Source of the DNA: a virus
Strand: one strand, 5' to 3'
Length of the DNA stretch: 27,739 bases
IMG/VR virus record: IMGVR_UViG_3300010885_017642
Location: 1 to 27,739 of that record
The notes under the pieces were generated by a model. That model worked only from the letters and a program-made list of their open reading frames with translations. It made no database searches and was not told where the DNA came from. Both the position numbers and the translations under genes were made by a program. Shown one piece after another: positions 1-27,739 of this stretch. Numbering within the stretch: position 1 is the stretch's first letter; each line of letters begins with the position of its first letter.

Positions 1-3000
1 CCACCAGTACCAATATTAATAGTTTTTTGTGTTGTACCAGTAATATTGGTTGATGCAACAGTTTGTGATTGGCTAATATTGTATGTACCAGCACCGCCTG
101 TACCTGTTCCTAAGGTAGTAATATAAGTATTAGGTAGTACATTAGTACCAGTTAGTTGCATACCAACTACAAATGTACCAGTTACTGTACCGCCAACAGT
201 TAATACTGTGGTTGTAATACTAGATGCTGTTCCTGAAGCAGTTGTTGAAGATGCTGTTGCTCCATTGGCAATATCAATATATTGTGAACCAGTAGAACGA
301 CCTAAAACAATTGCGCCAGTTTGAGTAGTGCCACCAATCGTTAAAGCACCTGTTGTACAATTTGTACTAATACTTCCATTACTGGTTGTGCTACCTGTAA
401 TAGCAAATGCCCCAACTATGGTTGGTGCGCTATTTAAAACTACCGAACCAGTACCAGTAATTGCGCCAAAGTTACTAAAACCAAATTCCCAATCAGCAGC
501 AGTTGTAAGTGCTGTACCAATACAGGTTAATATTGCTGAAGTATTAGCTTGAACAGTACAAACAGTATTTAAACCTGAAGATTGAACTGTCAAAATTCCA
601 GTACTATTATTTACTATTTCATATCGCCAACCTGTTGCTAAAGTACTTGTAACAGGTAAAACAATAGTCTGCGTCAATGTTCCTGTAAATACTTGATAAT
701 TTGTACTTGCATTTGTTAAAGTGGTTGTACCAGCCGCAGTTGCAGTAGTGGTATATCCATTAATAACAGAGTTAATTGCAGGTGCAGTAGTTACCCCAGT
801 TCCACCATTAGCTACTGAAACAGGCAAAGCTATAGCTGAACCGCTATAACCAGAAATACCCGAATAACCGCTATAACCAGAAATACCAGATTGTCCAGCA
901 ATATCAAAAGTCCATGAAGCAAAAGTTCCAGAACCACTTATTAAATCCACATTAACTGTTAATGTAGTTGTTGTATAGGCAGTAATTTGCCCTTCCATAA
1001 AGTTAGGAGAGTTATTGATGCGAACTCTCATTCCAACTACATAAGCATTAGTGCCTTGTGACTGATTGACTGTAAATGCTTTTGAACCTGTACCTATGGT
1101 AAATGAAGTGGTAGATGTTAAGTTTGCATATCCTAAACCACTATATCCGCTAATTCCAGAATATCCTGAAATGCCACTATATCCGCTAATTCCAGAATAT
1201 CCTGAAATTCCGCTATAGCCAGAAATTCCTGAATATCCACTATAACCTGAGATTCCTGAATACCCAGATATTCCAGAATATCCGCTAAACCCAGATATAC
1301 CACTATAGCCAGAGATTCCACTAAATCCACTATAGCCTGAAACACCACTTCCTGAATAACCCGAAATACCGCTATATCCTGAAACTCCTGAACCTGAATA
1401 ACCTGATCTTCCTGAATAACCCGAAAGTCCAGAATATCCAGATAATCCTGAATAACCAGATTGTGTATAAAAAACTTGGTTAGCAGATACAATAACACTA
1501 GGAGTAACTGGCACTGTTGGATTACTTTGTGTTCCAACAGTAAAAATAGAAATTCCAGTTGTACTTACTGCCCAAAATAACTGTACATAATCACCAGCAT
1601 TAAGTTTTAAAGTATATGGAGTAACAGCAATTAAATAACCATTAGTGCCACCTTGTGATCTAGGTATATTAAAAATACTGTTTGAATTTGCTACATCAAC
1701 ACCATTTACTCTGATCCAAATATCGACATTATCATTACCTGATCCAGTTGCAGTATTTTGGAATTGAACCGAATACTGAATATTGTAGACACCAGCATTT
1801 GCAAAAGTAATTTGATTGCCAGAATTTATACTTACACCAGTACTATTAGGATCAGTATTGCCAATATTAATGACATACGAAGAAGTAGTGCTTGATGCAG
1901 TTTGATTGGTAAGGTCGTAAAAAGAACCCCAATTACCAATAATTCCACCAGCACCTACAGCACCAGAGTATCCTGAAAATCCACTAATACCAGAATAACC
2001 GCTTATGCCTGAATAACCTGAATAACCTGAAATTCCGCTACCAGAATATCCAGAGATACCTGAATAGCCAGAAATACCGCTACCAGAGTAACCGCTTAAT
2101 CCTGAATATCCTGATAAACCTGAATATCCGCTTATTCCGCTATATCCTGATAAACCACTATAACCAGATATGCCTGATCCTGAGTAGCCAGAAAAACCGC
2201 TTAAACCTGAACCTGAATATCCGCTTTTTCCAGAATAGCCTGAAATACCTGAATAACCAGAAATTCCTGAATAGCCACTTATGCCAGAAAAGCCACTATA
2301 ACCAGACAACCCAGAATAGCCACTAAATCCACTGTAGCCTGATATTCCTGAGTACCCTGAAATTCCGCTATAGCCAGAAATTCCTGAACCTGAATAACCT
2401 GATATACCAGAACCAGAGTAGCCTGATATTCCTGAATAACCAGATAAACCATTTATTCCACTATAGCCCGATATTCCTGAATAACCAGATATACCTGAAT
2501 ATCCTGAATATCCGCTAATACCGCTAAATCCTGAATATCCTGAGTAACCAGACAACCCAAAACCACTATAGCCTGAAAAACCAGAATAACCTGAAAAACC
2601 GCTACCACTATAGCCAGATATACCGCTATATCCCGAAATACCACTCCAACCAGAATATCCTGAAATTCCGCTATATCCTGAATAACCAGATATACCTGAA
2701 TATCCTGAAACTCCTGATCCAGAGTAACCCGAAAAACCACTATAGCCTGAAAAACCAGAATAACCTGAAATTCCTTGACCAGTTAAAATTGTAAAATTAA
2801 TTGGTGTGTGATCTATATATCCAACTTCAGGAACGATTGCTACCCATCCAGTATTGATATTTACATTGCCATTTAAAATAAATGTAAATGCACCCGGAAC
2901 TTCTGACCATACATTCATGTCAGCAGACCTAGACCAAGTACCAATACTAGCTACATAAATACCATTAAAATTAGCATTATCTTGATTTTTAACTAAAACA

Positions 3001-3554
3001 CGATCTAAATTTACAGTTTGGTATCCATCAATTATTGGAAAACCTGAAAGAGTGATATTTCCATCATCAGGAGTTGTTGCACATTGACATTCTGGTTTAG
3101 GAGTAAATCCAATAATTAAATTATCAACATAATTTTTATTAACTAAATCAGTAGGATTTACAGGAGCAGTATCAACTTGTCCTGTAGTGCTACGCATATT
3201 ATTAAAATATGCAGAAAGTTGTCCTGTTAATAATTGTGGAAACTGAACAAAAGAATTAGCAGATCCAGCAGTATCTAAATTAACTACAAAATCCCCAATT
3301 TTCCAAGCTTGAGGAATGGTATCCTCTTGACCACGAACAACAGTTAAAACATCACCAACACGAATTGTTACCAAAACAATTTCATTTATTAATGAATTTG
3401 TTGCATTAACTAAAGTTATTTTAAATCCTTCTCCAGCTTGAGGATTAGGAAAGTATTGTCCTGTACCACTAGCTACATAGATAGTGGTATCAGTAGGCGA
3501 TACTGGTAATGCAAGCGTTGTTTGTGCTTGGTTAGCAAACAATAATATTGTCAT
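1..3554 (-). CDS. Large collagen-like tail fibre protein (C-terminus beyond the window)
   Basis: The frame is open from the ATG at 3554 to the left edge, giving at least 1184 residues. Residues 1-105 form an adaptor that resembles the start of the neighbouring fibre. Residues about 150-255 match a small domain common in phage fibres (motifs DRVLVKNQ, NGIYVA, GAFTFI, NTGW). Residues about 260-536 are a long Gly-X-Ser tract (GYSGISGYSG type) with Gly every third residue, as in collagen triple helices. Residues 537-696 look like a C1q/TNF-type jelly roll (WGSFYDLTNQTAS, FANAGVYNIQYSVQF, NAGDYVQLFW). A second Gly-X-Ser block (697-808), a small beta domain (VVGMRVRIN, MEGQITAY) and a short third block (885-905) follow. 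Then come the fibre motif VANGGTGVTT and a Ser/Thr/Gly-rich C-terminal region. It is probably a trimeric receptor-binding or decorating fibre. It is last in the visible operon, 22 bases after the preceding gene. Confidence 0.85.
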   Translation of the reverse strand, partial: MTILLFANQAQTTLALPVSPTDTTIYVASGTGQYFPNPQAGEGFKITLVNATNSLINEIVLVTIRVGDVLTVVRGQEDTIPQAWKIGDFVVNLDTAGSANSFVQFPQLLTGQLSAYFNNMRSTTGQVDTAPVNPTDLVNKNYVDNLIIGFTPKPECQCATTPDDGNITLSGFPIIDGYQTVNLDRVLVKNQDNANFNGIYVASIGTWSRSADMNVWSEVPGAFTFILNGNVNINTGWVAIVPEVGYIDHTPINFTILTGQGISGYSGFSGYSGFSGYSGSGVSGYSGISGYSGYSGISGYSGWSGISGYSGISGYSGSGFSGYSGFSGYSGFGLSGYSGYSGFSGISGYSGYSGISGYSGISGYSGINGLSGYSGISGYSGSGISGYSGSGISGYSGISGYSGISGYSGFSGYSGLSGYSGFSGISGYSGISGYSGISGYSGKSGYSGSGLSGFSGYSGSGISGYSGLSGYSGISGYSGLSGYSGLSGYSGSGISGYSGISGYSGSGISGYSGYSGISGYSGISGFSGYSGAVGAGGIIGNWGSFYDLTNQTASSTTSSYVINIGNTDPNSTGVSINSGNQITFANAGVYNIQYSVQFQNTATGSGNDNVDIWIRVNGVDVANSNSIFNIPRSQGGTNGYLIAVTPYTLKLNAGDYVQLFWAVSTTGISIFTVGTQSNPTVPVTPSVIVSANQVFYTQSGYSGLSGYSGLSGYSGRSGYSGSGVSGYSGISGYSGSGVSGYSGFSGISGYSGISGFSGYSGISGYSGISGYSGYSGISGYSGISGYSGISGYSGISGYSGISGYSGLGYANLTSTTSFTIGTGSKAFTVNQSQGTNAYVVGMRVRINNSPNFMEGQITAYTTTTLTVNVDLISGSGTFASWTFDIAGQSGISGYSGYSGISGYSGSAIALPVSVANGGTGVTTAPAINSVINGYTTTATAAGTTTLTNASTNYQVFTGTLTQTIVLPVTSTLATGWRYEIVNNSTGILTVQSSGLNTVCTVQANTSAILTCIGTALTTAADWEFGFSNFGAITGTGSVVLNSAPTIVGAFAITGSTTSNGSISTNCTTGALTIGGTTQTGAIVLGRSTGSQYIDIANGATASSTTASGTASSITTTVLTVGGTVTGTFVVGMQLTGTNVLPNTYITTLGTGTGGAGTYNISQSQTVASTNITGTTQKTINIGTG

Positions 3555-25879: not shown

Positions 25880-26326
25880 TTAAGTTAGGTCTTTTAAATT
25901 CTGAGTAACCGATTTACCTTCTGAGGTGTTATACGGCACTTTTACGGAGTTTAACTCAACATTTAAAGATTTTGCTACTTTCACACCATCAATATATTTA
26001 TCCCCGTGTACCATCCACTTCATGGCTTGTAGGAATTGCTCTTTCTGCTCTCTGCTTTGAAATACTAAACAGCACCAATACTCGGAATCAGTAGCAAGCC
26101 TGAATCTTTCCTGCTCTGCCCTGTTTCTTTCCATAAAGCCCTTTTGGACTTCGTTAAACTCTTGAGCCGTGTCCACTTCATCATTGCCTGTGTACTCAAT
26201 CTCATCAAATGGGTGCGCTTGCTTACTACCGACACCTATTGTAGGTTTGCCCCCAATGTTTAGGCTTATGCCTGATCCACCGAGTTTAATGCCAGACCCT
26301 ATGCCTGACCCGATCTTGATACTCAT
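25880..26326 (-). CDS. Conserved phage protein of unknown function (PAPS-reductase partner)
   Basis: The protein has 148 residues. The first 40 are Gly/Ser/Ile repeats (IGSGIGSGIKLGGSGISLNI), low-complexity. The rest is helical and charged, with DTAQEFNEVQKGFMERNRAEQERF, then DSEYWCCLVFQSREQKEQFLQAM and GDKYIDGVKVAKSLNVEL. I recognise the 'DSEYW..LVFQSREQKEQFL...GDKYxDG' pattern as a widespread phage family commonly placed before terminase, but no function is known to me. Its ATG shares one base with the stop of the enzyme gene (TAATG), so the two are coupled and may work together. Confidence 0.72.
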   Translation of the reverse strand: MSIKIGSGIGSGIKLGGSGISLNIGGKPTIGVGSKQAHPFDEIEYTGNDEVDTAQEFNEVQKGFMERNRAEQERFRLATDSEYWCCLVFQSREQKEQFLQAMKWMVHGDKYIDGVKVAKSLNVELNSVKVPYNTSEGKSVTQNLKDLT

Positions 26327-27051
26327 TATGTATGCCCTTTCATAGCAAATTCATATCTATATATTTCAACTTCGACCATAGGAAACCATTCGAGTATCTT
26401 TTGATAATCTAATGGGTAATGCTTTTTAATTTGGAATATAAATCTTAAATCTAATCCGTCAAAGCTTCTGCCGAATAGGTTGTAGTCTACTGGCAGTTTG
26501 ACCCCTGCCTTTTTAATCTCATCAATGAGCCTTTGCTTAGACCAATCATAAACGGGATAGTAGTGCCTTTGGTTGGTATTGATAGCCCCATGCTTTTGAA
26601 TAGCTAACCTGCGTTGGATTGAATCGTTTTGTCTAACCCCGATTGCAGTAAAGACTTCATCAGGATCTAGATCATTATCATAGGCAACGGCATAAGCCGT
26701 GTCCTCTCTGTTTGGTTCTTGCAGGTCTAGCCTTTGCATAAACCTTAAACGCTCTGGCGGTTGAAAGGTCATGCCATTGAGCATCCTATACAAGGAATCG
26801 TGTGGCATCCTTACTATTTTGGTATCAAAGAAATCCTCATAGTATTGGAGCGATTCTTCTATGAACGATAGATTGCCGGGAATCAAATACATATAGAACG
26901 GAACAATAGTATCGAAGTGATCCCTGATTGCCAGCCATGATGCTATTGAATCCTTACCGCATGAAAAAGCTAGTAGCGTGTCAGGTGTTACTCCTCTGAT
27001 CTGCTGAATAACTTCTTCAGAATTTTCTGCTCTCTTAAATTGATGAATCAT
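26326..27051 (-). CDS. PAPS reductase-like adenine nucleotide alpha hydrolase
   Basis: The protein has 241 residues. The PP-loop motif is SCGKDS at 30-35 (LLAFSCGKDSIASWL), followed by a Rossmann-like fold (FYMYLIPGNLSFIEESL; TKIVRMPHDSLYRML) and the family phrase AIGVRQNDSIQRRLAI, then HYYPVYDWSKQRLIDEI. Members activate a substrate by adenylylation or handle APS/PAPS. In phages they are often linked with sulfur or nucleotide-modification systems, but the substrate is unknown here. No Cys pair typical of true sulfate assimilation reductases is evident. It is first in the visible minus-strand series; its transcription would start in 27052-27250. Confidence 0.85.
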   Translation of the reverse strand: MIHQFKRAENSEEVIQQIRGVTPDTLLAFSCGKDSIASWLAIRDHFDTIVPFYMYLIPGNLSFIEESLQYYEDFFDTKIVRMPHDSLYRMLNGMTFQPPERLRFMQRLDLQEPNREDTAYAVAYDNDLDPDEVFTAIGVRQNDSIQRRLAIQKHGAINTNQRHYYPVYDWSKQRLIDEIKKAGVKLPVDYNLFGRSFDGLDLRFIFQIKKHYPLDYQKILEWFPMVEVEIYRYEFAMKGHT

Positions 27052-27256
27052 TTATTTACAATCTCCCTTATTTAATATTATCTCATATTCAAAATAATAT
27101 TTAATTAGGATATTCACCTACAGACGGAACAGATTATCTTTTCACATTTTTATAATCGAACAGTTGCGAACAGTTTGGTGTAACTTTATACCCTCTCTCT
27201 ATGTAATAGAGAGAGGGTATAAAAACGAGAGATAAACTGTTAATCAAAACTGTTAA
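27052..27256. other. AT-rich non-coding control region
   Basis: No protein gene fits here. 27057-27115 is almost all A/T with words such as TTTAATATTA and AAAATAATATTTAATTAG, as in DNA unwinding elements or promoters. CGAACAGTT occurs at 27157-27165 and 27167-27175, a 10-base period, and AAACTGTTAAT at 27234-27244 and 27247-27257. The minus-strand promoter for the gene series probably lies here, but no box is convincing. Confidence 0.55.
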
Positions 27257-27257: not shown

Positions 27258-27293
27258 AAAACCAGCCGAGAAATAATCCCCTAAAAATAGCCC

Positions 27294-27302
27294 TGTGGAT
27301 AA
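27294..27302 (-). other. Perfect DnaA-box sequence
   Basis: TGTGGATAA on the plus strand is the exact complement of TTATCCACA, the consensus DnaA box. A one-mismatch box (TTATTTACA) lies at 27052-27060. One exact box can occur by chance, but it lies near AT-rich DNA and iteron-like repeats. Confidence 0.5.
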
Positions 27303-27316
27303 CTTACCAGCAAAAC

Positions 27317-27354
27317 ATAGGGAAAACCCTATATATTGCCTAAAAAATAGGCAA
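27317..27354. repeat. Two tandem small hairpins with A loops
   Basis: ATAGGG-AAAA-CCCTAT (27317-27332) and TTGCCTA-AAAAA-TAGGCAA (27336-27354) are perfect 6- and 7-bp stems only 3 bases apart. Confidence 0.65.
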
Positions 27355-27474
27355 AATGCCCTGTAAGCTGGTATCAGCCCCTAAAAAAGCCCTGTAAGCC
27401 CTTGATTTTAAAGGATTTTCATAAAATTGTGGCAAAAAAGCCCTTAAATTACCCTTTTGGTATTGTTTTGCCTG

Positions 27475-27480
27475 TATAAT
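27475..27480 (+). promoter_or_regulatory. Candidate -10 box for the plus-strand RNA
   Basis: TATAAT is perfect and preceded by TG. No good -35 stands 16-18 bases upstream. Transcription would start near 27487, just before the first helix of the candidate RNA. Confidence 0.35.
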
Positions 27481-27486
27481 TACCCT

Positions 27487-27724
27487 ATTGGTAGCAGGAA
27501 ACAAGTAAGCGGTACAAAAAGCCCATTGCCTACTACCTAAGTGTTGCGGTAGCCCCGAGATAGATTCAGAACTCCGAATCGAAGCGTGTCGAAAGACTTA
27601 ATCAAGGGATCTCTACCCAGCAGGTCGTGAAACTCGGCAGACTACCAAGTCCAAGTGGCGAAGCCATTGGCAAACACTTTTTAGTGGGTAGCGCATAAGG
27701 TTCGTTATATGAGCCTTATGCGGT
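27487..27724 (+). ncRNA. Candidate structured non-coding RNA
   Basis: No reading frame is supported. Helices found by reading: 27490-27498 with 27529-27537 (8 of 9 pairs); 27548-27552 with 27642-27646 and 27555-27559 with 27633-27637, colinear; GATTC/GAATC 27563-27567 with 27576-27580; GTC-GAAA-GAC 27588-27597; CTACCCA 27613-27619 with TGGGTAG 27685-27691, which crosses the second helix as a pseudoknot; CCAAGTGGC-GAA-GCCATTGG 27651-27670; CGCATAAGG 27692-27700 with 27714-27722. GNRA-type and GAA loops favour the plus strand. It matches no class I can name; not tRNA, and RNase P or group I intron signatures are missing. The 3' end is unclear. Confidence 0.5.
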
Positions 27725-27739
27725 ATCTAATAAATACCA

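Follow-up and report, generated by a model that had tools for sequence, protein, structure and literature searches.

A conserved structured RNA element as the putative 5' leader of a divergent AAA+/DUF7192 operon in uncultured phages

The right end of the window (the whole stretch of DNA analysed here, an IMG/VR virus record that is linear, 27,739 bases long and cut off at 27739) carries a structured non-coding element on its plus strand, which we judge, with fair confidence, to be a cis-acting structured 5' leader of an operon encoding an AAA+ protein and a DUF7192 protein. The position of the element, promoter-like sequences, conservation, compensatory changes and a strand preference were all found; an action in cis is what we infer. 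The initial annotation had suggested that it may be a phage RNA with an action on host, packaging or replication. Such a role for a free-standing RNA in trans is not supported. A cis-acting leader is the simpler reading, since in three lineages the element directly follows a promoter and leads up to the start codon of the operon's first gene.

The record is probably a fragment of a phage genome. Its minus strand encodes phage structural proteins (terminase, portal, major head protein, tail sheath and tape measure), and towards the right end the final gene on this strand is that of a PAPS-reductase-like protein (26326-27051). Among cultured phages, those whose terminase and capsid proteins are related (46-54% protein identity) have genomes of 44-52 kb, and their hosts are Pantoea, Klebsiella, Yersinia, Escherichia, Actinobacillus and Shewanella. 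A terminase search yielded a close relative, IMGVR_UViG_3300022602_000446 (hereafter L004), which shows 83% identity to the window across the region and whose contig runs on. In L004, the ATG of a 379-aa AAA+ protein, with an AGGAG box, is located 34 nt past the RNA end on the same strand as the RNA. The AAA+ gene is followed by the gene of a DUF7192 protein and then by small genes in a long same-strand run. A second contig, L077, was found via the PAPS-reductase neighbours. Its gene order is that of L004 (the AAA+ and DUF7192 genes were identified by eye), namely the PAPS-reductase-like gene, the divergent intergenic region, the AAA+ gene and the DUF7192 gene. A third contig, L007, has the AAA+/DUF7192 operon and a comparable leader, with a different PAPS-type gene on the other flank, and L008 holds a partial leader of the L007 type. 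The leader sample consists of five sequences, one of them partial, from three lineages (the window and L004; L077; L007 and the partial L008). All three have the leader in the equivalent position, directly after the promoter and ahead of the divergent operon's first gene.

The element had been described as lying on the strand opposite to all genes. This holds within the window, but in L004 the next gene begins 34 nt on in the same strand. The description is a product of the contig end, because L004 continues into a same-strand gene; a leader next to a contig end can be mistaken for an orphan antisense RNA. On this gene order, the predicted plus-strand RNA is the divergent operon's leader. The AAA+ ATPase of the operon is MoxR/CobS-like, and the operon would probably be an early one. 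The DUF7192 protein adjoins the AAA+ ATPase in both L004 (3327-4205) and L077 (1991-2812). Judged by eye, the DUF7192 sequence looks like a degenerate von Willebrand A domain, which would parallel the MoxR/CobS-CobT pairs; a related pair is also found in Acinetobacter phages.

As the initial annotation stated, a TATAAT box (27475-27480) is followed by a non-coding stretch, of about 250 bases. The element contains no ORF of at least 60 aa, and its short ORFs disagree between the window and L004; that is, no conserved ORF was found. The minimum free energy (MFE) of the plus strand is -77.8 kcal/mol (z -2.8), a value equalled by 1 of 200 shuffled sequences. The minus strand also folds better than shuffles (z -4.3). 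No match to Rfam 15 at the gathering threshold (cmscan) was obtained in the whole window, and the below-threshold matches in the region, L007 and L077 are chance ones only (microRNA, snoRNA and sRNA models in the region). ARAGORN was negative for tRNA and tmRNA on the window and its relatives. A group I or II intron was rejected, given that there was no cmscan match and that the position is an intergenic leader and not the inside of a gene; tRNA, tmRNA and intron ideas are thus without support. Since the element has no ORF, folds better than shuffles and has no match in Rfam, the earlier view holds that this stretch is structured and non-coding and belongs to no known family. The GAAA and GAA loops reported on the plus strand are indeed there, in the hairpins 27588-27597 and 27652-27669.

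The leader is 90% identical between the window and L004, and its core (27539-27650) 94% identical; the intergenic DNA just upstream reaches 75% and the neighbouring coding sequence 92%. The constraint on the leader is that of coding sequence. For a test of the fold, the 24 substitutions from the window to L004 were laid on the helices and compared with random placement. The helix set that had been proposed first did no better than random, with 4 of 51 pairs broken against a random mean of 6.1 (P 0.19). Its two-part helix loses the outer pair of 27548-27552/27642-27646 in L004 (A.A), and its helix 27539-27547/27670-27679 loses three of nine pairs. In a revised fold, which has no pseudoknot, none of 54 pairs is broken by a substitution (random, 6.3; P 5e-5); this P value is optimistic because the fold was drawn with L004 in view. 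One base of the pair 27653-27668 is lost to a deletion, which is absorbed by the adjacent bulge. The compensatory changes in homologs called for at the outset are present on the revised fold. Two pairs are doubly compensated in L004 (27548-27617 and 27657-27665, both from G-C to A-U), and 27544-27620 changes from U-G to U-A.

The MFE fold of L004 alone, scored on the window, is free of this drawing bias. It showed 3 broken pairs, where 8.5 would be expected (P 0.0024), and three double compensations (P 0.004). The MFE fold of the window alone failed the substitution test (P 0.46), and both minus-strand folds of the window and L004 gave no signal (P 0.38). The consensus folding energy (RNAalifold) was -72.8 kcal/mol for the plus strand vs -58.6 kcal/mol for the minus strand. 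The MFE fold of L007 alone, scored on L008, had 2 broken pairs against 8.6 expected (P 0.0003); the minus strand of this stretch scores similarly and both strands pass, so that pair favours neither strand. The covariation is thin because the homologs are few (one close, one distant, and the L007/L008 pair). A covariance model from the window and L004 matched neither L077 nor L007, and a 98-position model from the same two sequences gave no score for L077, probably because of a long inserted hairpin in L077.

All parts of the revised structure are on the plus strand. A 5' hairpin, GGUAG(.AGG)/(CCU.)CUACC, at the start of the transcript (27490-27537) was recognized from its letters and is moderately supported; the L077 leader likewise begins with GGUAG/CUACC at its 5' end, and by inspection the pairing is cut to GGUA/UACC in L004. 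The core (27543-27621) is a three-way junction, for which compensation in L004, isolated folding and the L077 junction are the evidence. It comprises P2 (27543-27546/27618-27621 and 27548-27552/27613-27617), which includes the changed pairs 27548-27617 and 27544-27620, a 5-bp core hairpin (27563-27567/27576-27580), the GAAA hairpin (27588-27590/27595-27597) and the conserved AAUCAA (27600-27605), which is kept in L077. The core sub-sequence alone folds to the junction, yet not beyond shuffles (z -0.8). L077 shares GAAUCGA, UCGAAAGA, AAUCAA and CGUGAAACnCGG in the same order and at near-equal spacing, and none of 500 shuffles reached the alignment score. Its core folds to the same three-way junction with a different P2 sequence. 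AAUCAA and CGUGAAACnCGG in the core are conserved and were found independently in L077. Just 3' of the junction, the conserved segment CGUGAAACUCGG (27626-27637) is identical in L077 at 11 of 12 positions and is located there at an equal distance (20 nt) from AAUCAA.

Three hairpins follow. The small hairpin GACU-ACCA-AGUC (27640-27651) has unchanged arms and a single loop change in L004. The next one, CAAgUGGC-GAA-GCCAUUG (27652-27669), contains the doubly compensated pair 27657-27665. The third, CACU-UUUU-AGUG (27675-27686), was read from the sequence, and inspection showed analogous 4-bp hairpins at the corresponding place in both L007 and L077. The alignment of the inner part of the L007 leader with the window is not above chance; the kinship of the two leaders rests on the position, the 5' GGUAGC and the terminal hairpin.

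This long terminal hairpin (27687-27727) is located just upstream of the next gene's start codon, and the 60-nt 3' hairpin alone has a z of -6.9. Between the window and L004, six of its seven loop bases have changed and no arm base has. The hairpin is conserved in L007 and has a positional counterpart in L077. A dyad, GGTATC..AATACC (27722-27738), may form a short hairpin as an alternative to the base of the terminal hairpin, or may be a DNA operator. GGUAU is shared by the terminal-hairpin base and the short GGUAU/AUACC hairpin, and the two are mutually exclusive. By inspection, the same exclusion is seen in L007 and, with unrelated letters (GAUGC-UUUC-GCAUC), in L077. The short GGUAU/AUACC hairpin scored as terminator-like in L004 and L007, where a weak U tract comes after it; there is none in L077.

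The TATAAT -10 box, which has a weak -35, is the putative leader promoter, and from it the transcript is expected to start at about 27487. A promoter scan found no full sigma-70 site in the window. Promoter-like sites are present at the homologous positions of L008 (TTGACA-17-TATAGT) and L077 (TTGACT-16-TATGCT). In the cis-acting leader that we favour, transcription would start at about 27487, and the first 250 nt or so would fold into the 5' hairpin, the three-way junction with its GAAA hairpin, the row of small hairpins and the long terminal hairpin. RNA polymerase would then pass into the AAA+ gene, and the leader would act in cis on the expression of the operon. Read-through would most likely be set at the leader 3' end, by the mutually exclusive pairing of the terminal-hairpin base and the GGUAU/AUACC hairpin; such a control would be the most economical mechanism. 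Transcription attenuators, as a general class, have a mutually exclusive antiterminator and intrinsic terminator ahead of the start codon; the leader is comparable to them in its two competing 3' hairpins. It differs from them in its U tract, which is weak (L004, L007) or absent (L077), and in having no known signal.

It is worth noting that there are other possible interpretations, and the confidence that we express in each is to be read with the fact that these readings overlap one another. The putL and putR elements of HK022 are structured cis RNAs near the 5' end of early phage transcripts, and putL comes right after the promoter (PMC9378689). The leader resembles them in its place, right after a promoter-like sequence and before the first gene of its divergent operon, which is itself presumably early. 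The nascent leader might likewise bind host RNA polymerase and make it terminator-resistant throughout the operon without a phage protein. Its location directly downstream of the operon promoter, as in HK022 putL (PMC9378689), its multi-hairpin fold with conserved segments and, in L004, the long series of small genes that follows on the same strand are consistent with such processive antitermination. We nevertheless consider it improbable. The element (about 250 nt) is far larger than the put RNA of about 70 nt and unlike it in shape, having a three-way junction, further hairpins and a long terminal hairpin where put has only two stem-loops, which form an RNA polymerase-binding V. Moreover, the downstream genes of L004 and L007 show no clear excess of intrinsic terminators on that strand.

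The own promoter, the compact fold and the terminator-like 3' hairpin in L004 and L007 could also belong to a free-standing small RNA that acts in trans and ends at the terminal hairpin or at the next short hairpin. This seems doubtful, as the U tract is weak, with none in L077, and the AAA+ gene and its ribosome-binding site follow within 34 nt, with no space for a separate promoter. Another unlikely but conceivable reading is that the leader represents a class of phage RNA of its own, in which the conserved three-way junction (GAAA hairpin, AAUCAA and CGUGAAACnCGG) would act directly on host RNA polymerase or sense an infection signal, switching between the junction fold and the pairing 27613-27619/27685-27691 to open or close transcription of the operon.

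The dyad could be an operator instead. GGTATC-N4/5-RATACC occurs exactly once per stretch and always in the leader (27722-27738 in the window, 5401-5417 in L004, 4856-4871 in L007 and 4380-4395 in L077). The L077 copy is near the promoter, a few tens of bp downstream, and the others are at the leader 3' end. These facts, together with further dyads and repeats in the intergenic region, would fit an element at the DNA level, with operator dyads and control sites between divergent promoters and incidental hairpins. Such an element would, however, leave unexplained why L077 keeps the GAAA hairpin, why a P2 pair goes from U-G to U-A and why the test on the window and L004 favours one strand, and we regard it as quite unlikely. 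The pseudoknotted RNA of the initial annotation is very unlikely to be the functional fold: CUACCCA (27613-27619) can pair with UGGGUAG (27685-27691) over 7 bp and still can in L004, which has one tolerated change (C-G to U-G), but its partner helices are broken in L004 (P 0.19 for the whole fold), L077 has no such pairing at that place, and the pseudoknot is an alternative state at best because 27613-27617 pairs with 27548-27552 in the better supported, compensated helix and 27687-27690 is in the terminal hairpin.

With regard to other known RNAs, the manA and wcaG motifs of cyanophages are candidate structured RNAs from metagenomic phages, identified by comparative genomics and proposed to control nearby genes (PMC2864571). 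They go with other genes, and the leader had no match in the Rfam scan. The large ornate RNAs GOLLD and ROOL are likewise structured and non-coding (PMC12286853). Some of them are tied to phages and metagenomes. They are much larger than the leader of about 250 nt and have Rfam families of their own, whereas the leader region matches none. The leader RNA would form a new family, though a small one, of a kind already known, and it is most likely a cis-acting leader. The structured RNAs of phage transcripts are still poorly catalogued; those that are known, put for example, have regulatory roles. The leader has no Rfam counterpart, and its place is kept across three diverged lineages though much of the sequence has turned over. 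It is a testable candidate for control of the AAA+ operon in these uncultured phages.

In the search for homologs, comparison of the region by blastn with phage and plasmid records yielded no match. The terminal-hairpin pattern matched viral contigs other than L004 and L007 (L062 is the same contig) in unrelated contexts, and these matches were taken as chance. The core pattern CGAAAG..AATCAA..GTGAAAC was accompanied in viral contigs by the surrounding motifs only in L004 and L077 (L086 is the contig of L077). A shorter core pattern had many matches in prokaryote genomes; 45 loci were scanned with the covariance model R1, and none matched. No match to R1 was found in 401 genomes of one family, and no TerL relatives in prokaryote genomes. 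The two cultured phages with related TerL and capsid that were examined (Yersinia, Shewanella) have no such divergent region beside TerL. In Acinetobacter phages with a close AAA+ protein, the gene is inside a same-strand run, and the R1 scan of two phages was negative. Among 12 IMG/VR loci with AAA+ proteins of 78-100% identity, the scan of upstream ORFs showed no sign of this layout except in L004 and L007, and R1 was negative in the others.

Several minor observations were made outside the leader. A small protein encoded at 801-1058 of L004 is HTH-like by eye, and the GGTATC..RATACC dyad is a candidate operator for a phage repressor. Between the divergent promoters, the window has C/A-rich repeats (CCCCTAAAAAAGCCCTGT and variants) at 27279-27460 and a DnaA-box-like TGTGGATAA near 27293-27301, which is absent from L004. 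A perfect 18-bp AT-rich inverted repeat, TTTATACCCTCTCTCTAT-GTA-ATAGAGAGAGGGTATAAA, is located at 27185-27223, with oppositely oriented AACAGTT repeats on its flanks. The counterparts in L004 and L007 (5407-5441 in the latter) differ in sequence but are still palindromic, as an origin or operator would be. At the other end of the window, 3-3554 encodes a tail-fibre-like protein whose collagen-like SGYSG repeat is very long and whose frame is open at the contig end.
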